DNA of 64,000 nt, taken from positions 248,001 through 312,000 of the forward strand of contig CATQHC010000009.1 in NCBI GenBank assembly GCA_958295775.1, given 5' to 3'. Made by a program: the position numbers and the translations under genes. This document shows positions 35,183 through 47,363 of this stretch, one piece after another (position 1 is the stretch's first letter; each line of letters starts with the position of its first letter). The notes beneath the pieces are model-generated. The model was not told where the DNA came from. It did not search any database and worked only from the letters and a program-made list of their open reading frames with translations. The DNA is from Chloroflexota bacterium. Lineage in GTDB: Bacteria; Chloroflexota; UBA11872; VXOZ01.

Positions 35183-37033
35183 CTATCTCATGGAATAGTC
35201 TACAGACCAGCGCACGCCGGTTGGCAAGAATACACCAATGTATTGGCCGGTCTTGAAGCGATCAACCTCGTAATCGGGAAGCCGGCCCGTTGCGATGCAA
35301 ACCCCTCCAATCCGACTGCCAGTCCACTTGAAGAAGAAGTCGAGGTTATCGTGTTCGCGACCCTCTAGCAGGTCTACGTTTACGGGATATACAAACAATA
35401 TGAACCGCGATTCGACTTCCTCTTGCCTGCATGGCGCTCGAACGTAAATCAACTCCCTGCCATTGAGATACACGTCATACTCGGCTTCAATTATCAATTC
35501 TCCCTTTTGAAGCTGGACTGCATCAGAGTCTCGTAGCAATCGACCGAACCAATCAGGAATTTCGAACGTTGCGTATTGGTCGTGGGACTCCGCCCCGGTA
35601 GCATTCAACACTGTTGAGAACTCCGCACCGAGTTCCTCATAGCGCAGCATGCGAATTCCGAGGTCAGGAGAGTATTGCGTTAGCCTTGTAATGGGGCCAA
35701 CAGCGCCTAGTCCCAGCAAGACGGTCAAGCCCAGGAGAACACCTCGCTGAAACCAATTCTGGTCCTTACTCCACCCTGTCAACACGGTCTGGACACAAAA
35801 ATAGGACAGCAGGACAAGAACCGCCAGTGGGGCATACCTAAGATATTCATTGAAATGACCAAACGAATACCAGGGGAATAGGACCGAAACCGCCAGGCAG
35901 GCAACCACGAACGGATTGCGTCGCAACACCGGGCTAATCAGCAAGAGTAGTATACCCACCACGAAGAACCCGGCCATACCCTGCAATTCATGTGCCGTTG
36001 CGACCCCATCCCACCCGTAGCGCTGCCAAATCCAACCGCTGGGAATCGAGGTCGCGCCGCTAGTCAGATAGAAAAATAGCAAACCGAGGAATGGCACAGA
36101 CAGCAGCACGTTCTGCCAGGAGAGGAAGGGCCGGATACCGTTTACGAGGAGCAAGACGAGTAGGAAGGGCAACAAGCCAAGAGCTGCCAGGGGCGACCAA
36201 AACACGGTCGCTCCCAGAACCAAACCCGTGAGGGCAAGGAATCTCCTTTCCCGCTGCAACTGAACCAGCAGCAGTACGGCCAGACCACCTGCTAAGAGGT
36301 GCTGTGGAGAGTATGACAAATCGTCGACTATCCTGCGAAACCAACGGATTTCCACAGGATCGACAGCTACAGCGAGTGTGGCAAAGAAGATGAGCAGAAC
36401 GACCGCAGCGACCGCTCTCCAGCCGCGGAGACCATGCGCAAACAGCAGAAAGAGCAGCGAGACTCCGCACCACGTCCAGATCGGCACAGCCCAATTCAGG
36501 GCTGCAGCGCCAAACCAACTCGCTACAAGTCCCGGGGCCATGTAGTAGCCGAGGTAGTACCGTAGAAGCAGCGGCGCTTCGAAGTAGGAAGGCAAATACG
36601 TAGGCCACCCGCCGCGACCCAGGTCGAGCAGAATCGCGCGGTGCTTATCCCAATCGAAATTTTGCACATCGAAGACCCCGCCCGCGGCCGTCGTCATTGT
36701 CCATGCAAGCGCGACGGCCAGCAGGAGGATGGTTACGGGTCTAACCGAAAGCCTGAACGTTCCTGACAACGGCTGCCATAGCGCTAGCACAAACAACGCG
36801 GCTGCTGGAATGCTCAGCCACCATTGAAACCAACCTACCAGCCATACAACCACCGGCAGCAGCAGATACACGATGGCCAGCCGGTGCGCTAACGGCAGCG
36901 CCTGGCCGGTGGAGCCACCGGAATTCGGCGAATCTGAAACGGGGAGCTCTGAGGAGGTGTGTTCGGCAGACCCAGGCATTCCAATTTGCAGGAGGCCAGC
37001 TATCGAGGCAAGGCTACGCCTAATCCGGCTCAT
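35183..37033 (-). CDS. Polytopic membrane protein, GT-C-like, with one C-terminal Cys-pair domain (paralog 3)
   Basis: 616 residues with about twelve hydrophobic segments (residues 45-490) and a soluble C-terminal domain (511-616). The first large loop reads FDWDKHRAILLDL followed by a W-P motif, and then LLRYYLGYYMAPG. An acidic motif in the first outer loop is typical of GT-C glycosyltransferases, so sugar transfer outside the membrane is a reasonable guess. The C-terminal domain has YDVYLNGRELIYVRAPC, RFILFVYPVN, LDFFF, GGVCIA and LPDYEVDRFKTGQY. Shortest of three tandem paralogs: it has only one copy of the C-terminal unit and a shortened middle loop. Begins M-S-R-I-R-R-S like its neighbours. 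Confidence 0.75.
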   Translation of the reverse strand: MSRIRRSLASIAGLLQIGMPGSAEHTSSELPVSDSPNSGGSTGQALPLAHRLAIVYLLLPVVVWLVGWFQWWLSIPAAALFVLALWQPLSGTFRLSVRPVTILLLAVALAWTMTTAAGGVFDVQNFDWDKHRAILLDLGRGGWPTYLPSYFEAPLLLRYYLGYYMAPGLVASWFGAAALNWAVPIWTWCGVSLLFLLFAHGLRGWRAVAAVVLLIFFATLAVAVDPVEIRWFRRIVDDLSYSPQHLLAGGLAVLLLVQLQRERRFLALTGLVLGATVFWSPLAALGLLPFLLVLLLVNGIRPFLSWQNVLLSVPFLGLLFFYLTSGATSIPSGWIWQRYGWDGVATAHELQGMAGFFVVGILLLLISPVLRRNPFVVACLAVSVLFPWYSFGHFNEYLRYAPLAVLVLLSYFCVQTVLTGWSKDQNWFQRGVLLGLTVLLGLGAVGPITRLTQYSPDLGIRMLRYEELGAEFSTVLNATGAESHDQYATFEIPDWFGRLLRDSDAVQLQKGELIIEAEYDVYLNGRELIYVRAPCRQEEVESRFILFVYPVNVDLLEGREHDNLDFFFKWTGSRIGGVCIATGRLPDYEVDRFKTGQYIGVFLPTGVRWSVDYSMR

Positions 37034-37111
37034 GCGTTCCCGTCACTGCACATCTGATTCATGCCATTTTCCCAGCAGTTATTGGGTGCGCCGACCCGCC
37101 TGAACCTAGCA

Positions 37112-39532
37112 TCATTGGTACTCCTCGAGGATGAAGCTGCCTTCCCACAGCGTACCGCCCCCAGCCAGAAACTGACCAGCCCTGATCGCGAAGATATCGT
37201 AGTCCGGCAGGTCAATCGCCGCAAAACAGCTCCCTCCAGAACTCCCACCATATTCATTAAGGTCGAATTCAAGTGTGTCGTGCCCTTCATTCTTGCCCTC
37301 ATCGGACAGATCGTCCAAGTTCACGGGAAATACGTGCACATAGAAACGCGCGTCATCGTCTCCCTGGCCACACCCGCCTTTGGAGAAGAGCAGCCGTTGC
37401 GTGCCGCTTTGGGTCGCGCCAAGTTGCGTACGGTCTTGGTGAAGATACACATCATATGCGGAACGAATGATCGGCGCACCCGCCTCCGTGATGAGACGAA
37501 TGCGGTAAGGCTCACTGAAATAGCTGGCCATCCAGATGTGACCCGAACTCTCTGCATTTGACTGGCCGGTCTGAAGCTGCCCGATTTGAAATGAGTCAGC
37601 CAGTTCATGTATCGCATAGCATGTCTCACCAATTCTCAATGCGTGCGCTGGGGTAAGAGGAAAGTCGAAATAGAAGCGGGTACGGTCTCTAGGCAGGCTG
37701 CTCGCATCAAGCGGGTTCACCTGCACGAAGAATTGGGTACCCTCCAAATCCGGCGGGCATGGGCCCTTTACGTACACAAGCGTTCGGTCGTCAATATACA
37801 CGTCATAGGCAGATCGGATCACCAATTCACCTTTGGCCGGCGCGACATCGCCGGGGTCAAGTCCAAACAGCCGCAGATACCAAACCGGAAGTTGATTGGT
37901 CAGGTAGAGGGGCACATAAACGTCAGGAGGATTCTCCACCAAGATGCCCTTGATTGAGTATTTCTCTCCCAATTGCTCATGGCGGATTCTGTCAAAGTTG
38001 TGATAGTTGTTGGCTCTCGCCAGCTCGACCAATGGCGTAACGGCGCCCACCGCCAATGCGCCAACCAAAAGCATGAACAGCGGTAGCCGGAAAAGCCTTC
38101 CTTTACCTACTGAATTAATTGGCGAGCCAGCAACGGTACCGACGCAGTAGTAGCAAAGCAGGAAAAGGGCCGGCATCACACCGCGCATTGCAAAGTCGTT
38201 AAAGTACCCTAACGAATACAGGGGAAGAAGTACCAATGTCGCCAGACTTGCAACAAAGTATGAGTCATGGCGCAGTTGCGGCCGCAACAAGAGGAGGAGG
38301 CTTCCCAAAATTGCAAATTCGCTCAAATAGAGAATGGCCAATGCAAACAACGCTGCCAGCGGACCGTTCTCGTGTCTCTCCCAAATCCAACTCCGCGGAA
38401 CGTCTCCAACTCCACTTGACAGGTATACAAACAGTAAGCTCGCCAGAGGTAACGCCACCAACAGATTCTGCCAGCTTAGGAAGGGGCGGATGCCCCTTTC
38501 AATTACCAAGGCAATTACAAATGGCAGTAGGCCAATCGCGACAAACGGCGACCAGAACGGCGCCACTGCCAGAACGAGACCGCTGATCCCGAGGAAACGT
38601 CCATGCCGGCGCAACTGCACGAGCAGCAAGCCGTAGAGCGCAGCCGGGATGAAGTGCTTCGGCACCCACAACAGACCGACCATATGCGAGGAAATCTGGA
38701 TGCGCAGTGAATCCAGTCCCTCCCACTCCAGATGTTGGCGCCCCAACTCTATATTCGGCCAGCCATCCAGCCTAAGGCTGAATTGCGTAACATCCCATCC
38801 TTCAAACAAGGCGATGCGCAGTGCGTCCATGCCACTGAAGAATATGAGCACCAGCGCCGCCACTAGCGTCCGCCAGCCGCGATAGCCGCGGTTGAACATG
38901 AGCAAGATGAGGGCAACACCGGACCATGTCCACAGCGGCACCGCCCAATTCAACGCCGCCAATCCGAGCAACTTGCCCAAGAGCCCTGGCACTATGTGAA
39001 AGCCCAGGTAGTGGCGCAGTACGATGGGCTGATTCACATAGTCGCGAAAGTCTTGCAGCGGTTGAGTCGGCCAGTCGCCGCGGCTCAGCTCAAGCATGAG
39101 CGCCCGGTGCTTTTCCCAGTCGGCGTTATTGAGGTCGAATATGCCCCCGCCGGACGTGGTCATTACCCAGGCAAAGGCAATGAGCAGCAACGCAACGGTT
39201 GCAGGTCTCAGCGCGGAGCGAATGGCGTCTGAGAACGCTTGCCATGTGAAGCTCGCGCTGGGCGGCGCGAGCGCCCGCCAGAGTCCCACCGCCAAGAGCA
39301 CGGCCGCCGGCACGCCAAACCACCACTCAAACCATCCCACCAGCCAGATCACCACCGGCAAGGTCAAATAGATGATCGCCAGCCGATGTGTTAGCGGTAT
39401 CTCTTCAGTGGTGACGTCGCCGGATGAAGGTGAACGCAAGATCGCTCGTGTCTTCGCGACTATCCAAGACCCGCCAGGGCTCGCACTGAATTCCTGGCCG
39501 TTTGCGGCTATACTTCGTCTACTCTGGCTCAT
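37112..39532 (-). CDS. Polytopic membrane protein, GT-C-like, with two C-terminal Cys-pair domains (paralog 2)
   Basis: 806 residues: N-terminal M-S-Q-S-R-R-S, about 12-14 hydrophobic segments to residue 555, then two homologous units of about 116-122 residues (569-684 and 685-806). The first outer loop has NADWEKHRALMLELS; LRHYLGFHIVPG, HMVGLLWVPKHFIPA and GIRPFLSWQNL are shared with paralog 1. Each C-terminal unit has I-R-S-A-Y-D-V-Y, one Cys after the second strand (GPC, GGC), a central F-x-V-x-V-x-P block and a second Cys before A-x-x-x-L (ETC, GSC). The Cys pair suggests a disulfide outside the cell. Function unknown; GT-C glycosyltransferase is inferred. Separated by 78 bases from paralog 3. 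Confidence 0.75.
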   Translation of the reverse strand: MSQSRRSIAANGQEFSASPGGSWIVAKTRAILRSPSSGDVTTEEIPLTHRLAIIYLTLPVVIWLVGWFEWWFGVPAAVLLAVGLWRALAPPSASFTWQAFSDAIRSALRPATVALLLIAFAWVMTTSGGGIFDLNNADWEKHRALMLELSRGDWPTQPLQDFRDYVNQPIVLRHYLGFHIVPGLLGKLLGLAALNWAVPLWTWSGVALILLMFNRGYRGWRTLVAALVLIFFSGMDALRIALFEGWDVTQFSLRLDGWPNIELGRQHLEWEGLDSLRIQISSHMVGLLWVPKHFIPAALYGLLLVQLRRHGRFLGISGLVLAVAPFWSPFVAIGLLPFVIALVIERGIRPFLSWQNLLVALPLASLLFVYLSSGVGDVPRSWIWERHENGPLAALFALAILYLSEFAILGSLLLLLRPQLRHDSYFVASLATLVLLPLYSLGYFNDFAMRGVMPALFLLCYYCVGTVAGSPINSVGKGRLFRLPLFMLLVGALAVGAVTPLVELARANNYHNFDRIRHEQLGEKYSIKGILVENPPDVYVPLYLTNQLPVWYLRLFGLDPGDVAPAKGELVIRSAYDVYIDDRTLVYVKGPCPPDLEGTQFFVQVNPLDASSLPRDRTRFYFDFPLTPAHALRIGETCYAIHELADSFQIGQLQTGQSNAESSGHIWMASYFSEPYRIRLITEAGAPIIRSAYDVYLHQDRTQLGATQSGTQRLLFSKGGCGQGDDDARFYVHVFPVNLDDLSDEGKNEGHDTLEFDLNEYGGSSGGSCFAAIDLPDYDIFAIRAGQFLAGGGTLWEGSFILEEYQ

Positions 39533-39624
39533 GCCGTCAAGTCTTCACTCTACCTTATACCGTGTTTTGATCCCTCGGCTACATGACCTCTGCGCACACA
39601 GGCTCACTTGAGCAATGTTCCCGG

Positions 39625-42018
39625 CTACTTCTCAAACGCATGGCTTCCCTCCCACACCCTTACGCCTCCAGCATCCATCTGCCCCGCCCTAATCTCGACT
39701 ATCTCATACTCCGGTAACTCCACCACCGCAAAGCAGGCGCCGCCGTTCATCCCGCCAAAGTCACTGAAGGTAAAGTCAATTGCGTCGTATCCAGCATTCC
39801 TACGCTCGTTTGGCAGGTCATTGAGATTGTCCGGCACCACGTGCACGTAGAACCGTCCGTCAGCGTCTCCCTGCCTGCACTCGTCTCTGGCCAAGAGCAA
39901 GTGCCTGCGGCCTGTTTGTCCCGCGCCTAACTCTCTCTCCGACTGATGAAGGTACACTTCGAAACCGGAGCGAATGATCGGCGCGCCCGCTTCAGCCAGC
40001 AGACTGCTGCGGTAGTCTTCACTAAAGTAGTTGCTCAGCCAGCTATGGCCGGTGCGCTCCGCATTGAGCTGTCCGGTCTTGATGTGGCCTATGGCATAGT
40101 CCGGCAGCTCCACTACCGCTACACACGTCTCAGCGATCCTCCAGCCGTATCCTTGAAATTCAAGGTCATAGCTAAAATGGCTCTGGCCGGTTGGGATTAA
40201 GTTAGTGTCAACCGGGACCACGTGGAGAAAGAAGCGCGTAGCGGCTTCTTCGGGTCCACACGCATCATTCACATATACCAGCCTCCGATTGTCATAGTAC
40301 ACCGCATATTCCGAGTTGATGAGGGCCTTGCCTCTTGCAGGTGGGCTTGCTACTTTGGTGGCCGCATCTCTTAGCAACCCCTGGAACCAGCCGGGGACTC
40401 GAGGCGCGACATATTGGTAATGCACGTCGGTGGCTACCCACGGAATTTGAAGTATTGAAAAGTTCGGCCCCAATTGCGCATAGCGAACCACGCCAAATTC
40501 ATGCTCGTTGTTTGCTCGCGTTAAGTCGAACACGGGAGAAACCGCGCCGATAACAAGCGCTCCCACAATGAGACCTGAAAGGACGAAGTGGCGAGAGCCA
40601 CGCTTGGACTCCCCTGAAGGCTCTCCATTGCCCAAGATGGCATGAGCGCAAAAGACACACAGCAAAATCAGCGCGGGAATCAACCCGCGTAGCACGAGGT
40701 CATTATGCAGCCCTAGGTAATAGAGCGGCAGCAACAATAGTGTAGCCAAGGAGGCAAGGAAGAATGGTTCACGCGACAGGTGGGGGCGCAGCAGAGCCAG
40801 CAAAACTGCGAGCAGCAGGAACTCCGTGAGATACAACACCGGCAGCAATCGACCGATAGTGCGCCAACTGTAGATGTCCCATAGCCACGAGCTTGGAATC
40901 TCTTCTGCGCCGGAGGACAGATATGCCGCCAATAACACCGCCAGCGGCAGCGCCACAAAGAGGTTTTGCCAACGGAGAAACGGTCGGATGCCCTTTCCGA
41001 ATACCCAAACTGCGATGAATGGTAAGAGACCAACAGCGACAAACGGCGACCAAAATAAGGCCGCCCCCGTGACAATCCCGCTCACTGCAAGGAAACGCTC
41101 GTGCTGACGCAGTTGCAACAGCAACAGCACGGAGAGCGCTCCGGGTATAAAGTGCTGCGGGACCCACATCAAGCCATACATGTGGGAGTGAAACATAATC
41201 TTGATGTCTTCGTGCAGGTTTCGCTCAAGAAGAGTTCGCCCTAACCAAAGCTGCGGCCAGCCAGCCAAATCTACGCGCAGCGTCAGCCACTCCCAGCCTT
41301 CGAAGAGCAGGACGGTCACTATGTCCATGCCGCTGAACAAGATGAACACCAAGGCGGCGGCAAGCGCTTTCCAGCCGGCAAAGCCGCGGGTGAACATGAG
41401 CAAGATGAGACTCGCGCCTCCCCACGTCCACAAAGGCACCGCCACATTCAGGGCCTGCAGCCCAAACCACCTGCCAAGCATTCCCGGTACTAGGTAGTAC
41501 CCCAGGTAGTACCGCAGCAGCGACCCAGGTTGACCGGGTTCAGTGGGAACATATGCGGAGAGGTCAGGCGTCCAATGGGGCAAGTACACCGGCCAAGGAA
41601 CCCGGCTGAGGTCGAAGAAGATTGCTCGATGTTTATACCACTCGGGGTTGTGGACATCGAATACGCCACCCGCCGCAGTCGCCAGCACCCACCCCGCCGC
41701 CGCCAGCACCAATACCATGCCTAATGGGCGAAACGACACTCGCCATGGGCCTGAAAGCGCCTTCCACAAGGATATTCCCAGCAGCACAACCGCCGGTATT
41801 CCCAACCACCACTCAAACCATCCCGCCAGCCAGATCCCAACCGGCAGCATCAGGTAAACGACAGCAAGCCGGTGCAGTACCGGGATTACGCCGGCGGTGA
41901 CCGCATTCGCTGAATGAGTACCCGAAGCACTCTGCGTACGCGACCCAGCGGCGAGTGCGCCGACGCCGGTATGTACCAAGTCGGAGAGGATAGCAACGCT
42001 GCGTCTGATTTGGGTCAT
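39625..42018 (-). CDS. Polytopic membrane protein, GT-C-like, with two C-terminal Cys-pair domains (paralog 1)
   Basis: 797 residues from the ATG at 42018, which gives M-T-Q-I-R-R-S matching the paralogs; an ATG six codons earlier is possible. About 12-14 hydrophobic segments, then two C-terminal units (about 563-677 and 678-797). Loop motif NPEWYKHRAIFFDLS replaces the Asp-Trp of the others with Glu-Trp. LLRYYLGYYLVPG, HMYGLMWVPQHFIPG and GIRPFLRWQNL are conserved. C-terminal Cys pairs are at DAC/ETC and DEC/GAC. It starts 24 bases after the ferredoxin gene in the same direction, so it may share that transcript. I do not recognise a named family for the C-terminal unit. Confidence 0.75.
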   Translation of the reverse strand: MTQIRRSVAILSDLVHTGVGALAAGSRTQSASGTHSANAVTAGVIPVLHRLAVVYLMLPVGIWLAGWFEWWLGIPAVVLLGISLWKALSGPWRVSFRPLGMVLVLAAAGWVLATAAGGVFDVHNPEWYKHRAIFFDLSRVPWPVYLPHWTPDLSAYVPTEPGQPGSLLRYYLGYYLVPGMLGRWFGLQALNVAVPLWTWGGASLILLMFTRGFAGWKALAAALVFILFSGMDIVTVLLFEGWEWLTLRVDLAGWPQLWLGRTLLERNLHEDIKIMFHSHMYGLMWVPQHFIPGALSVLLLLQLRQHERFLAVSGIVTGAALFWSPFVAVGLLPFIAVWVFGKGIRPFLRWQNLFVALPLAVLLAAYLSSGAEEIPSSWLWDIYSWRTIGRLLPVLYLTEFLLLAVLLALLRPHLSREPFFLASLATLLLLPLYYLGLHNDLVLRGLIPALILLCVFCAHAILGNGEPSGESKRGSRHFVLSGLIVGALVIGAVSPVFDLTRANNEHEFGVVRYAQLGPNFSILQIPWVATDVHYQYVAPRVPGWFQGLLRDAATKVASPPARGKALINSEYAVYYDNRRLVYVNDACGPEEAATRFFLHVVPVDTNLIPTGQSHFSYDLEFQGYGWRIAETCVAVVELPDYAIGHIKTGQLNAERTGHSWLSNYFSEDYRSSLLAEAGAPIIRSGFEVYLHQSERELGAGQTGRRHLLLARDECRQGDADGRFYVHVVPDNLNDLPNERRNAGYDAIDFTFSDFGGMNGGACFAVVELPEYEIVEIRAGQMDAGGVRVWEGSHAFEK

Positions 42019-42042
42019 GCGCGCATCGTGGTTCAATCGGAC

Positions 42043-42288
42043 CTAGGAGAACTGTGCCACGTCCACCACATTGAAGGGTACTTCACGAGGGTTTTCCGGT
42101 CCTACGTAGATGGCGTCGGTCGGGCAGTATATCTCGCACAGGAGGCACGACTGGCAATCGGCTTGATACCGGATGTAGGCTTTCTTGTTGCTATCCATGC
42201 GCAGCACGTCGAGCGGGCAGACCTTTACACAGAGATTGCAGCCGATACAGAGGTCTTCGTAAACTCTCTCAATTGCCACGCCACGCAT
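42043..42288 (-). CDS. Ferredoxin, 2[4Fe-4S] type
   Basis: 81 residues. Two cluster motifs, CIGCNLCVKVCP and CQSCLLCEIYCP, define an 8Fe-8S dicluster ferredoxin resembling the beta subunit of adenylylsulfate reductase but shorter. It probably carries electrons for the flavoprotein encoded just upstream on the same strand (163-base gap). GGGAG precedes both the ATG at 42288 and a GTG at 42279; either may start. Cytoplasmic. Confidence 0.88.
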   Translation of the reverse strand: MRGVAIERVYEDLCIGCNLCVKVCPLDVLRMDSNKKAYIRYQADCQSCLLCEIYCPTDAIYVGPENPREVPFNVVDVAQFS

Positions 42289-42451
42289 TCTCCCTTGAGC
42301 GCTATGTTGGACCAAATGTGGCGAGTCCCACCGCTGGGCAACATACAACCAATTTCAATAGCCACGAGCTTCTCGCGCGAAAATACTACCGCTTCTGGGC
42401 CCTTAGACCCGTACGCTCAGCAATCCTGCCGGAGCGACCTCGCGAGACTCA

Positions 42452-44161
42452 CTACGGGCACTGCAACGCCGTCTCTTCAAGCAATCCCAGCTTCTCAAGC
42501 CGTTCTTGCGGCACGGCCGCGTACCTGAATACCGGATCGCCTTTCGCATCAGGCTCCGCGATGATCCAGCGCAGCCACTCGCTGTCATCGCGCTGTGGGT
42601 AGTCCTCACGATAATGCCACCCGCGGCTTTCCGTGCGCAACAGCGCGGCTTCGTACATCAGCGCTGTGGTCAGGGCAGTCGACTCGACTTCAAAGCACTT
42701 TACGAGTTCATGAAAGTCCGGAGCAAAGAGGCGCGGCGCCGCCGCCTGTGCCAAAGAACGCACGTGCGCCAGTGCCTGCCGCATTCGCTCCTCTTCGCGG
42801 AATATGTTTAGGGCAGGCGGCATTGCCTGGGCCTGCAGGTGTCCGTACACTGTGTCGGGGAGAAGCCCGCCTTGACGCTCCATGGGGCGCAGGACTTCCG
42901 CGAATGCATGCGCTTTGCGGGAATCAGAGATCTCCTCCAGACCGGCATCCTGGGAAAACAGACCCGCCCCGACACCGGCAGCGTAGCCGCTGCCATTTGC
43001 CCACGCGAGATTGAGAAACGTGATGCCGCTGGAGGCGCCGACCACGTATCCGCGTGTCGCCGCGTCACCGGCAACATAGAGTCCCGGCACGCTGGACGCC
43101 ATAGTAGTATCACTTATATAGACTCCTGCTGAGCCCGAAACGGAACCGTTAAAACCCGGATGCCACTGCGTCCGATCTGCAAAGAGGCCCTGCCCACTGC
43201 GGCGGGCAAGCTCGGCGATGTACTTGAAGGCGTGCAGCCACATTTCGCGGTCCGTCGCAGGCACCGCAGTAAGATCGAGCTGAATGGGCCCGCGCCCCTC
43301 ACGTATCTCCGTGGCCATGCCCCGCGCAATCACGTGAATTGCCGGAGGCACCTTATCCGAATACTTGCCGAGAAAGGGCTCGCCATTACCGTTCAAATAC
43401 CTGCCGCCAATGGCGGCCAGAATGCACTGGCCGTGACTATCGAAGCGCGTGTTCGTCGCAATGTAGCCGTTGGCGAATTCCATGTTCATCAAGCTAGCGC
43501 CGACGTCCCATGCCAGCTTGTAGGCCTCGCCGCAGAGCATGTCGTGGCCAAAGTGCGTGCCCTTCCAGGCGCACCCTCCTGCCGCCAGCACCACCGCTTT
43601 CGCTTGGATTAAACACAGCCTGTCATCCTGACGTCGGATACCCACCGCGCCGACAACGCGTCCGTCCTCCACCAAGAGCTTCACAATCGCCGTGTGGTCG
43701 AGGATCTTCGCCTGCTTGGTACGCAACACGTGCTTGCGCATCAGCTTCATCAATTCCACACTGTCCAGGCCCAGCCGCCAAACTGTCTCGCGCGAACCCA
43801 CGTAGATGAGGCGACGGTGAAGGGAACCGTCCTCATGGCGGTCAAACGGCGCGCCCCAGCTATCCAACTCCGCAATGCGCTCGTAGTTCGCGTGCACGAG
43901 CCACTCGACCCACGCCGGGTCCAGTAGGAGTTCACTTTCGCGGCAGTGTTCGCGCACAAAGTCCGACGGGTCGTCGTCGGGCGTCAGGTGGAGCACCACG
44001 CCGCCCGCAAAGACGCTGCAGCCGGAGCCGCCGACAAAGCCCTTGTCTACCACCAACGCGCGGCTGCCCTGGCGGGTTGCCGCAATCGCGGCCCAGCAGC
44101 CTGCCAGGCCGCCCCCTATCACCAGGACGTCAGTGGAGTACACGTCATGGGGTACTTCCAT
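42452..44161 (-). CDS. FAD-dependent oxidoreductase, AprA / fumarate-reductase-like
   Basis: 569 residues. N-terminal FAD-binding Rossmann motif VLVIGGGLAGCWAA, followed by VVDKGFVGGSGCSVFAGG; the C-terminal PGLYVAGDAATRGYVVGASSG closes the FAD site. Overall it resembles the succinate dehydrogenase/fumarate reductase and adenylylsulfate reductase alpha group, but the substrate cannot be named. ATG 44161 overlaps the permease stop (TGATG) and has GAGGAA upstream; the frame extends far into the permease gene, which is a shadow. With the ferredoxin and an SsuABC-type transporter it probably oxidises or reduces an imported, possibly sulfur-containing, compound. Inference only. Confidence 0.85.
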   Translation of the reverse strand: MEVPHDVYSTDVLVIGGGLAGCWAAIAATRQGSRALVVDKGFVGGSGCSVFAGGVVLHLTPDDDPSDFVREHCRESELLLDPAWVEWLVHANYERIAELDSWGAPFDRHEDGSLHRRLIYVGSRETVWRLGLDSVELMKLMRKHVLRTKQAKILDHTAIVKLLVEDGRVVGAVGIRRQDDRLCLIQAKAVVLAAGGCAWKGTHFGHDMLCGEAYKLAWDVGASLMNMEFANGYIATNTRFDSHGQCILAAIGGRYLNGNGEPFLGKYSDKVPPAIHVIARGMATEIREGRGPIQLDLTAVPATDREMWLHAFKYIAELARRSGQGLFADRTQWHPGFNGSVSGSAGVYISDTTMASSVPGLYVAGDAATRGYVVGASSGITFLNLAWANGSGYAAGVGAGLFSQDAGLEEISDSRKAHAFAEVLRPMERQGGLLPDTVYGHLQAQAMPPALNIFREEERMRQALAHVRSLAQAAAPRLFAPDFHELVKCFEVESTALTTALMYEAALLRTESRGWHYREDYPQRDDSEWLRWIIAEPDAKGDPVFRYAAVPQERLEKLGLLEETALQCP

Positions 44162-45024
44162 CAACGTTCCTCGTGGTCCCAAGAAACATGCACACGGAGG
44201 AAGCGAATGAGCTGGTCCAAGGCATAGCCAATCACGCCAATTATGAGAATCACCGCCATCAATTCGCCGTAGTTGAAGCGGTCTCGGGTATCCAGAATGT
44301 AGTAACCCAGGCCATCGGACACACCCAGCATTTCCGCAGGCACGAGGATGACCCACGCCAAGCCCACCGCCAAGCGCAAGCCGGTGAGCATGTCGGGCAC
44401 AACCGCCGGTAGAATGACCATGCGCACGAGCTTCCATTCGTTTGCGCCCAGGGTGCGCGCCGCGCGCAGCCAACGTTGGTCCAGACTGCTTACGCCGTGG
44501 GCCGTATTGATTATCATGGGCCACACCGACGCAATGGCAATCAAGAAAATGACAGGATTGTTCCCCACGCCAAAGACAATGATTGCGATGGGCATCCATG
44601 AGAGCGGGGAGATCATGCGGGTAAACTGAAAGGCGAGGGAAGACGCGCGTTCGGCCGTGCGGTAATGACCGATGATGACGCCAATCGGCACGCCAATTGC
44701 AACCGCCAGCGCCAGGCCCAAGCCAATCCGCTCCAAGCTCGCCAAAATATGCGAGTAGATCACCCCGCTGGCAAAGAAACCCGCAAGCTCGCGAAAGGCG
44801 TTCCGCGGTTGGAAGGCCATAACGATACCGGAATCAGTTAAGAGACCGCTCGTAAGCAACTGCCAGAGCAGCAGTATGACGAGAAAGCCTAGAAGTGGGA
44901 CGCCAACACCGCGCAGGCGCGCCAACCACCGGCCCTGCAGCGGTGGGGAATCCGGGTTCGCCGTTTCAGAATTGGTCTCCGCCTCGCTGCGTACGTCCTC
45001 GGCCAGCCGGCCTCCGGTGCTCAT
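44161..45024 (-). CDS. ABC transporter permease, SsuC/TauC type
   Basis: 287 residues with six hydrophobic segments; the cytoplasmic EAA loop appears as RAARTLGANEWKLVRMVILPA. The N-terminal 40 residues are polar. Type of permease used for nitrate, taurine and alkanesulfonate uptake. ATG 45024 lies four bases after the stop of the binding-protein gene, and its own stop overlaps the flavoprotein start, so all are in one operon. A longer frame upstream overlaps the binding protein and is rejected. Confidence 0.9.
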   Translation of the reverse strand: MSTGGRLAEDVRSEAETNSETANPDSPPLQGRWLARLRGVGVPLLGFLVILLLWQLLTSGLLTDSGIVMAFQPRNAFRELAGFFASGVIYSHILASLERIGLGLALAVAIGVPIGVIIGHYRTAERASSLAFQFTRMISPLSWMPIAIIVFGVGNNPVIFLIAIASVWPMIINTAHGVSSLDQRWLRAARTLGANEWKLVRMVILPAVVPDMLTGLRLAVGLAWVILVPAEMLGVSDGLGYYILDTRDRFNYGELMAVILIIGVIGYALDQLIRFLRVHVSWDHEER

Positions 45025-45028
45025 GGCA

Positions 45029-46264
45029 TTACTCAATGCCGATGATCTCCTTGCGCTCGAACGCCTGTTCCTCAGCGACATTGAACGCGCTCGGCCCACC
45101 GGCTGCGTTGTAGGCTTCTTTGACCAACGTATACTCTACCAAATCTTCCGCAGCGTGATCGCCCGAGAGATCGCCCAAGAAGCTGGTGTCTCCCTCCACC
45201 TTCGTCTGCTTGATCTGATTCACTAGCTCGACCGTGTACGACGGATACGGCCACGGCTGGAAGCCAATACGCGACGCGCCCCACTCCGGATGATGGATGG
45301 CGTTGGTGCCCTGCGCGCCGTAGGTCTCAAGATCATACTTGCCCATGGCGCGCTCGATTACGGCTGCGCCCTGGGGCAGGAGTCCGCTGCCGTCCTTGGA
45401 GAGCAGTTGCGCCGTGCCCGGAATGTCCTGGAGCGCGCCGAGTTGCGCATTTGCAATGCTATTGAGGACTCGCTGGGCCCACTCCGGATTCTCATTGATG
45501 TACTTTTCGTTGAGCACCGCGACGCAGCAGGCGTGGTCCTTCCAAATGTCACCGGTAAACCGTATGATCTTGCCGTTCGCCAGCAACTCCCCGGCGGCGT
45601 TGAACGGCTCGGCGACGATGTAGCCGTCTATCGACCGATTACCCAGCGCCGTCGGCATATCCGGCGGCGCCATAACAAAAAGATTCACCTGATTGGCAGC
45701 CAGTTCGCGGTTGCGGTCCTGGATTACGGCTTCCAGATTGTGGTGGCGTAGCGCCATTTGCAAGACGACGTTGTGGATTGAGTACCAGAAGGGCACCGCA
45801 ATCTGCTTGCCCCCGAGGTCCTTGATGCTATCGATGCCGCCCTCTTGATGTACCGTAAGCGCTGAGCCGTTGATGTGGTCCCAGGCAACTACCTTCACGG
45901 GAAAGCCGATGCCATAGCGCATCCACACGGTCATTGGCATCAGGAAGTGCGCTACATTCACTTGGTCGGCCATGAACGCTTCCGCAAGCTGCGACCAGCC
46001 GCGGAAGAGGGCCGGCTTATCGGCATTCAAACCTTCGTCGGCAAAGTAGCCTCCCGCATATCCAAGCGTGAGCGGTGTAGAATCCGTGATCGGCAAGTAT
46101 CCGACTTTCACCGTGATGTCGGAGACTTTTGCCGGAGTGACCGGGCCTCCGCTTGCCTCCTCGGCATCGTCTCCCCCGCAGGCGGCGACGAGCGGACTGG
46201 CGACCGCACCCAGCGCAAGTGCACCTAGTCCGCTCAAGAACTGCGCGCGCGTAATCTTCTTCAT
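45029..46264 (-). CDS. ABC transporter substrate-binding lipoprotein, NMT1/SsuA-like
   Basis: 411 residues. N-terminal KKITRAQFLSGLGALALGA with lipobox LVAAC, then an NMT1/SsuA-type fold (KVGYLPITDSTPLTLGYAGG, GYIVAEPFNAAGE). These proteins bind sulfonates, nitrate or pyrimidine precursors in the periplasm or on the cell surface. Ligand is unknown; the internal DHACC motif and the redox genes downstream hint at an unusual substrate. AGGAG lies upstream of the ATG. Second gene of the operon after the ATPase. Confidence 0.9.
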   Translation of the reverse strand: MKKITRAQFLSGLGALALGAVASPLVAACGGDDAEEASGGPVTPAKVSDITVKVGYLPITDSTPLTLGYAGGYFADEGLNADKPALFRGWSQLAEAFMADQVNVAHFLMPMTVWMRYGIGFPVKVVAWDHINGSALTVHQEGGIDSIKDLGGKQIAVPFWYSIHNVVLQMALRHHNLEAVIQDRNRELAANQVNLFVMAPPDMPTALGNRSIDGYIVAEPFNAAGELLANGKIIRFTGDIWKDHACCVAVLNEKYINENPEWAQRVLNSIANAQLGALQDIPGTAQLLSKDGSGLLPQGAAVIERAMGKYDLETYGAQGTNAIHHPEWGASRIGFQPWPYPSYTVELVNQIKQTKVEGDTSFLGDLSGDHAAEDLVEYTLVKEAYNAAGGPSAFNVAEEQAFERKEIIGIE

Positions 46265-46496
46265 CGTTCAGTTTCTCCTGCTCTTCTCTATTGGCGCCGG
46301 CGGATTGACCTGAATGCAATCCATCGGCCGCTGCTACAACGCAAACTTGTGCCGCTACTCGCTCCCGTCAACCCTGCGAACACGCGCACGGCACGGCGAG
46401 AATGGGTACGGTGCTCTTACTCCCTACAGAGTTCTTGCACGACGCCTTGGTAGAGTGTTCGCGTCGGCAAGGGAATGAAATTCATTCGAGTCGCTT

Positions 46497-47300
46497 CTAA
46501 ATGTGGTAGTACTGCTCGCGCGTGTGCGCAAGGTTGAACTCGGTGAAGACCTCTTGCCGCAAGCGCACCAGTTGCGGATCAACCCGATCCCGCGGATGGG
46601 AAATCGGTACCGGAATGACGCGCCGCAACTCACCGGGATGCGCGGACATGATCGCCACGCGGTCGCCGACGTAGAGTGCCTCATCGATATCGTGCGTCAC
46701 GAAGACCGTAGTCACTCCCTGCGCTTTGACGATGCGCACAATCTCCTCCTGCATCTCCATTCGCGTGAAGGCATCCAAGGCGCCAAAAGGCTCATCCATA
46801 AGCAGGATTTCTACCTGATTGGCAAGCGCGCGCGCCAAGGCTACCCGCTGCGCCATGCCACCCGAAAGCTGCGCAGGACGCGACCGTTCGAACCCCTGCA
46901 ATCGCGTGAGGGCCACCAGGTCCGCGACAATAGCTTGCTTATCGCCTTTGAAACCCCGCGCATCGAGGCCAAACCGGATGTTCCCTTCAACTGTGAGCCA
47001 GGGAAAGAGCGCGTAGTCTTGAAAGACCATGCCGCGCGTGTAGTGCGGGCTCTCAACCGGTTGTCCGGCCACGGTCACGCTGCCGTGCGAGAGGCGATCC
47101 AGCCCGGCTATGACGTTGAGGAGCGTCGACTTGCCGCACCCACTCGGGCCCAGCACGCAGAGCAACTCCCCCTCGTGCACAGAGAGGTTGACACCCTGAA
47201 ACGCCACGGTAGCGCCGCTCCGCGCGGCGAACACCTTGGCGGCATCTTCCAGCACGATGCGGGCGTGTGCGGAGGGAGTGCCGCCTGTTTCCTGTGTCAT
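46497..47300 (-). CDS. ABC transporter ATPase, SsuB/TauB type
   Basis: 267 residues. Walker A LGPSGCGKST, Q-loop MVFQDYALFPW, signature LSGGMAQR, Walker B ILLMDEPFGALD and the switch His in FVTHDIDEAL are all intact. It powers the permease at 44161. ATG 47300 is chosen; the frame is open to 47363, but only the later part is conserved. First gene of the minus-strand operon, reading from the divergent AT-rich region shared with a rhodanese gene. Confidence 0.92.
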   Translation of the reverse strand: MTQETGGTPSAHARIVLEDAAKVFAARSGATVAFQGVNLSVHEGELLCVLGPSGCGKSTLLNVIAGLDRLSHGSVTVAGQPVESPHYTRGMVFQDYALFPWLTVEGNIRFGLDARGFKGDKQAIVADLVALTRLQGFERSRPAQLSGGMAQRVALARALANQVEILLMDEPFGALDAFTRMEMQEEIVRIVKAQGVTTVFVTHDIDEALYVGDRVAIMSAHPGELRRVIPVPISHPRDRVDPQLVRLRQEVFTEFNLAHTREQYYHI

Positions 47301-47363
47301 TACGCTCGCCACGGCTGCGGTGTACTTCCTCTCTTGGGACACCCTGGTAAGGACTAACGGCAA

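Follow-up and report, generated by a model that had tools for sequence, protein, structure and literature searches.

Many otherwise unrelated envelope proteins, in a small number of bacterial genomes from two phyla, carry at or near the C-terminus a domain of about 105 residues with a conserved pair of cysteines (the unit). Within a genome this unit has been copied as a module between genes. In the window (the whole stretch of 64,000 nucleotides that was analysed), five units are carried by three tandem membrane proteins, p1, p2 and p3. The unit may serve in glycan recognition outside the membrane, a proposal with an even chance of being right.

The window proteins and their units

The genes and their parts are located as follows.

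35183..37033, minus strand: p1, polytopic membrane protein of 616 aa with one C-terminal unit (ORF; 41% identical to p2)
35189..35506, minus strand: p1 unit, residues 510-615, C535/C579 (unit profile)
35519..36910, minus strand: p1 membrane part (alignments)
37112..39532, minus strand: p2, polytopic membrane protein of 806 aa with two C-terminal units (ORF; 49% identical to p3)
37127..37480, minus strand: p2 unit 2, residues 685-802, C721/C769 (unit profile)
37517..37834, minus strand: p2 unit 1, residues 567-672, C592/C638 (unit profile)
37859..39406, minus strand: p2 membrane part (alignments)
39625..42018, minus strand: p3, polytopic membrane protein of 797 aa with two C-terminal units (ORF; full-length relatives in three other genomes)
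39634..39987, minus strand: p3 unit 2, residues 678-795, C714/C762 (unit profile; unit-alone model with pLDDT 87.3)
40024..40332, minus strand: p3 unit 1, residues 563-665, C587/C632 (unit profile; Ig/FnIII-like beta-sandwich in the model)
40354..41892, minus strand: p3 membrane part, about 13 predicted hydrophobic segments, N-in/C-out (aligned hydropathy and charge, positive-inside rule)
41623..41643, minus strand: p3 acidic loop motif E126-W-Y-K-H-R-A, in the predicted extracytoplasmic loop after helix 3 (alignment, topology)

The three genes are intact and stand head to tail, with gaps of 78 and 92 nt between the called ORFs. All start with ATG (MSRIRRS in p1, MSQSRRS in p2, MTQIRRS in p3); the p3 start was placed at 42018, and a longer p3 ORF opens with TTG at 42036. 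ORFs and starts agree with the initial annotation, which described three tandem paralogs with the common start M-(S/T)-x-x-R-R-S. Among the loop motifs that it assigned to all three, D/E-W-x-K-H-R-A, LRxYLG and GIRPFL are present, but W-V-P-x-H-F-I-P is found in p2 and p3 only, p1 reading SPQHLLAG at this place. Searches of p1, p2 and p3 gave no match in Pfam and a single, non-significant match in NCBIfam. A fourth paralog with one unit is encoded elsewhere in the same genome (L003/L218, contig C8, about 176.9-178.6 kb). It has N-W-D-R-N-R-A in place of D/E-W-x-K-H-R-A, the acid being either shifted or lost. The same contig holds an orphan C-terminal half-unit in a 67-codon frame with no host protein (L217:1839-2039, 194.84-195.04 kb), which looks like a gene remnant; the unit fragment itself spans 194.85-195.01 kb. 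At 42043-47363 of the window, ferredoxin-like and FAD oxidoreductase genes stand beside genes for an ABC permease, a substrate-binding protein and an ATPase; by eye this resembles an anion or organosulfur uptake/reduction cluster and is unrelated to the unit.

The unit profile found one, two and two C-terminal units of 103-118 aa in p1, p2 and p3, with all ten cysteines in register, as had been described. The E values of 1e-41 to 1e-47 per copy follow by construction from a profile built from these five; all five were also recovered independently by units of other genomes. The strand and block motifs given for the unit hold in part: YDVY is exact in three of the five copies, but p3 has YAVY and FEVY, and the LPDY block is exact in three copies, with LADSF or LPEY otherwise. 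That the unit belongs to no named family was borne out, as sequence searches of Pfam, NCBIfam and PDB gave no match.

It had further been proposed that the unit duplicates on its own. This is upheld across genomes by copies in different hosts (see below), but not as recent duplication inside the window. Between p2 and p3, identity is 44% for the first units and 53% for the second, against 31-35% for the units within one gene. Judged by these identities, the two-unit layout predates the p2/p3 split, since units at the same position are closer than units of the same gene, and the different copy number does not stem from recent free duplication inside the window. A related species of the same genus (G002) has the same set, two genes with two units each and one gene with a single unit, and the single units of p1, the C8 paralog and the G002 gene cluster in the tree (SH-aLRT 90). 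Identities, gene set and tree grouping together indicate that, in the window lineage, each paralog has long had its present number of units.

Fold, hosts and movement of the unit

A total of 185 units in 131 proteins was collected by profile search. Motifs conserved strongly across phyla are a tryptophan (185/185), GFDNLDF, LP-Y and TGQ. A first tally gave both cysteines in 178 of 181 copies, neither in three and exactly one in none. On inspection, all 178 complete copies keep both, and five copies without the segment of the first cysteine have also lost the second, with V, A or P at its position. These five (L137, L151, L165, L166, L180) lack the first strands and keep the rest; they are mutually related and all sit on a single host group, in genomes from two phyla, so that the joint loss may go back to one or two events. 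The cysteines thus behave as a pair, and because they are kept or lost together they probably form a disulfide. The window's genome encodes a DsbB homolog; VKOR and Thioredoxin_4 were searched for in it and not found.

The unit modelled alone (nine sequences) gave a pLDDT of 87.3 and a pTM of 0.79, with nine strands and short helices. The best structural match was 9ard_A (Z 7.9), with no chain at Z >=8 and a best Foldseek E value of 8e-3. Matches at Z 6-8 are Ig/FnIII-like domains, including CBM9, starch-binding and GH2 domains, none of which stands out. The model resembles a generic Ig/FnIII-like beta-sandwich, its Z below 8 being specific to no family. Pfam CBM families did not match the scanned carriers.

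In nearly all hosts no more than about 20 residues follow the unit, or a tandem of up to four copies. The host parts before the unit fall into 15 groups without mutual BLAST similarity, three polytopic groups being distant relatives by profile comparison (92-97%). Host matches in Pfam and NCBIfam comprise PMT/PMT_2, Wzy_C O-antigen ligase, arylsulfotransferase, GDSL/SGNH/AlgX, and GSDH with cytochrome c; weak matches are to GT22, Agl23 and arabinofuranosyltransferase, all GT-C like PMT/PMT_2. In one host set searched with Pfam, PMT/PMT_2 was found in 26 to 29 of 54 hosts. PMT/PMT_2 gathering scores (cut-offs 26.1 and 22.7) were passed by L016 (27.0 bits), L027 (36.9/36.6) and L034 (31.6/30.5). 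A cadherin/fn3/LRR protein (adhesin) is also a host, and one adhesin-like host carries the unit in its middle. In L125, L167 and L088 (G400, G413 and G406) a PMT_2-like host has the unit mid-protein, followed by a tail of ~371 residues. By eye the tail is NodB-type polysaccharide deacetylase-like (HGHNHxDHD ... AYPR); searched against Pfam, it gave no match. All identified host types are extracytoplasmic and mostly glycan-related. Even without topology prediction, this locates the unit outside the membrane, and the predicted C-out topology of the window proteins agrees.

Movement of the unit is directly seen in copies within one genome. In G413 the unit of an SGNH-type host shares 84% of its protein and 89% of its DNA sequence with that of a 7-helix host, against 12% and 56% for the 60 residues upstream. 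Same-genome pairs of this kind over 70% number 39, and in most of them the preceding 60 residues show background identity (12-35% protein, 44-61% DNA). Similar units join host groups 3-9, 1-5, 1-8, 1-2, 1-12 and 0-5. The 0-5 pairs shown are the sole case of similarity running on upstream, since another unit precedes there. As similarity ends at the unit edge and the hosts are unrelated, the unit moves as a module between genes of one genome. Most cross-host unit pairs have dN/dS of 0.35-0.64. Positive selection was considered and dropped, dN/dS being below 1 in most pairs. The close window-family paralogs L010 and L135 (G400, a gammaproteobacterium, about 3.76 Mb) have dN > dS, with dN/dS pairs of 0.050/0.036 for the host and 0.104/0.046 for the unit; the numbers are small, and the two are possibly diversifying.

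A profile built from 20 units was used to search other genomes. Carriers are rare and lie in two phyla: 6 of 400 sampled Chloroflexota genomes, 3 of 294 Dehalococcoidia (the class of one carrier), 1 of 13 genomes of genus g5, and 3 of 17 genomes of one gammaproteobacterial order. Among 369 sampled Gammaproteobacteria the unit was found in one, the known carrier itself, and in none of the others. Rich carrier genomes hold 16-34 copies. These carrier counts should be read as minima. In G020 the two matches (L018, L022) terminate precisely where their contigs do, which is what breakage of short-read assemblies in repeats would produce, and the family is probably under-counted in such assemblies. 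Tandem arrays of at least three unit-bearing genes, like that of the window, occur in G009 (2.977-2.999 Mb), G413 (1.047-1.058 Mb) and G509 (777-787 kb). The plasmids, phages and viral contigs searched hold no unit, so there is no sign of phage or plasmid carriage. A literature search found no paper on the unit. The G002 carrier holds contig JAJEAH010000068.1 of MAG jk18x7bins.44. MAGs with this prefix are from Ircinia sponge microbiomes, where number 44 itself is not named (PMC9531527). By its prefix the carrier would thus come from a marine sponge, and sponge association of the unit is a lead rather than a result.

The main rival to glycan recognition is a docking or sorting tag, through which a common partner gathers unrelated proteins at one surface site and no substrate is bound. 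The C-terminal place, the many copies per carrier genome with none in most relatives, and the quite different chemistry of the hosts would all suit such a tag. However, sorting is superfluous for the many hosts that are polytopic membrane proteins, and neither tandem copies (2-4) nor a central copy would be usual in a sorting tag. Sorting-tag models gave no match in the proteins scanned, that is, the part of the carriers scanned with NCBIfam. Docking is considered rather unlikely.

The membrane part of p1, p2 and p3

Averaged hydropathy and charge predict about 13 helices with the N-terminus inside and the C-terminus outside. The acidic motif would lie in a 73-residue outer loop after helix 3, on the same side as the units. 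Its acid aligns with D in relatives that have no unit and with N in the C8 paralog. This arrangement is that of GT-C proteins (8-14 helices, N-in, a large outer loop with a conserved acid, an outer C-terminal domain), and is not GT-C-specific. The unit-free relatives come from 12 genomes, which belong to a different family within the same phylum, and in 8 of the 12 loci the relative adjoins a PMT_2-type gene, the same protein each time.

No match to the membrane part was obtained in Pfam or NCBIfam, GT families included, or in PDB sequences, including searches with a membrane profile. Compared by hhalign with the PMT-like host groups, the membrane family gave 2-4% probability, against 92-97% among those groups as controls. 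An AlphaFold2 model of full p3 (six sequences) folds the units and leaves the membrane part mostly at pLDDT <60 (about 25-60), and because of this poor folding the fold search was uninformative on the membrane part. By these comparisons it forms an unnamed family of its own, with relatives that lack the unit. The initial annotation had put forward a glycosyltransferase acting outside the membrane. The direct tests lend this no support, but topology, the outer acidic motif, the PMT_2 neighbours of the relatives and the PMT/PMT_2 hosts of the unit speak for it, and the membrane part is likely GT-C.

It is unlikely that p1-p3 are instead transporters or channels whose extracellular domain binds a ligand. 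Such a role would fit the lack of sequence similarity to GT-C profiles, the poor structural model, and the position of the genes beside ABC transporter and oxidoreductase genes with no glycan cluster. It fits poorly with the capping of PMT/PMT_2 and other glycan enzymes by the unit elsewhere, with the recurrent pairing of unit-free relatives and a PMT_2-type gene, and with the conserved acid in the first large outer loop.

Role of the unit and related systems

Under the glycan recognition proposal, the unit would be a disulfide-type, beta-sandwich accessory domain working outside the membrane. It stands at the C-terminus of many unrelated envelope proteins, mostly enzymes for making or altering surface glycans, and has spread between hosts within each genome. 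The three polytopic proteins that it caps in the window are most likely GT-C-type extracytoplasmic glycosyltransferases. There it would bind the acceptor or growing glycan and keep it near the catalytic part of the fused enzyme. Several observations weigh against parts of this proposal. The best Z is below 8 and specific to no family. The SGNH, arylsulfotransferase and sugar dehydrogenase hosts share no obvious glycan that could be one common ligand. The near-invariant place at the extreme C-terminus also fits docking or sorting, one adhesin-like protein has its unit in the middle, and the membrane part failed every direct sequence test for GT-C. A structural spacer or stabiliser without specific binding, spread by neutral domain duplication, would explain the generic Ig/FnIII-like fold, the copy number of 1-4 and the moderately high dN/dS, but is quite improbable given the motifs conserved strongly across phyla, the confinement of the unit to envelope proteins and its abundance in few genomes only.

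One domain on GT-C transferases, O-antigen ligases, sulfotransferases, SGNH-type enzymes and an adhesin would mark proteins that act at the same surface place; the bacteria concerned are uncultured, and their surface glycans are difficult to investigate. For dozens of proteins that otherwise lack annotation, the unit points to a likely compartment and a probable shared role, and it is a case of an extracellular module copied between unrelated enzymes. In the case in which it serves docking or recognition for much of the surface-glycan machinery of symbionts in two phyla, passed between the phyla and shuffled between the enzymes of each genome, it could be considered a common surface-remodelling kit for life with animal hosts; this is a speculative and improbable extension.

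The mycobacterial GT-C arabinosyltransferase EmbC has a C-terminal lectin-like CBM subdomain; acceptor binding resides there, and activity depends on it (PMC3044687). By analogy with EmbC, glycan recognition is the reading favoured for the unit. The window proteins would resemble EmbC as GT-C-type enzymes with an extracytoplasmic C-terminal domain, GT-C type and binding being presumed for them. Unlike the EmbC module, which occurs in one enzyme, the unit is found on 15 host groups and has no named relative. Many other unit hosts match the GT39/PMT and PMT_2 Pfam families, and the window proteins have a similar overall topology, but their membrane part matches neither profile. The unit model shares the general beta-sandwich arrangement of Ig-like and FnIII-like domains, CBM9 and starch-binding CBMs (Z 6-8); there is, however, no sequence match, and the middling Z may reflect the common arrangement only. 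In the PEP-CTERM/exosortase system and with the T9SS CTD, one C-terminal domain marks many unrelated surface proteins per genome, with a patchy distribution across phyla. The unit is likewise C-terminal, present on many unrelated surface hosts per genome and patchy across phyla, but differs in being a Cys-pair domain of ~105 residues, often in tandem and often on polytopic proteins.
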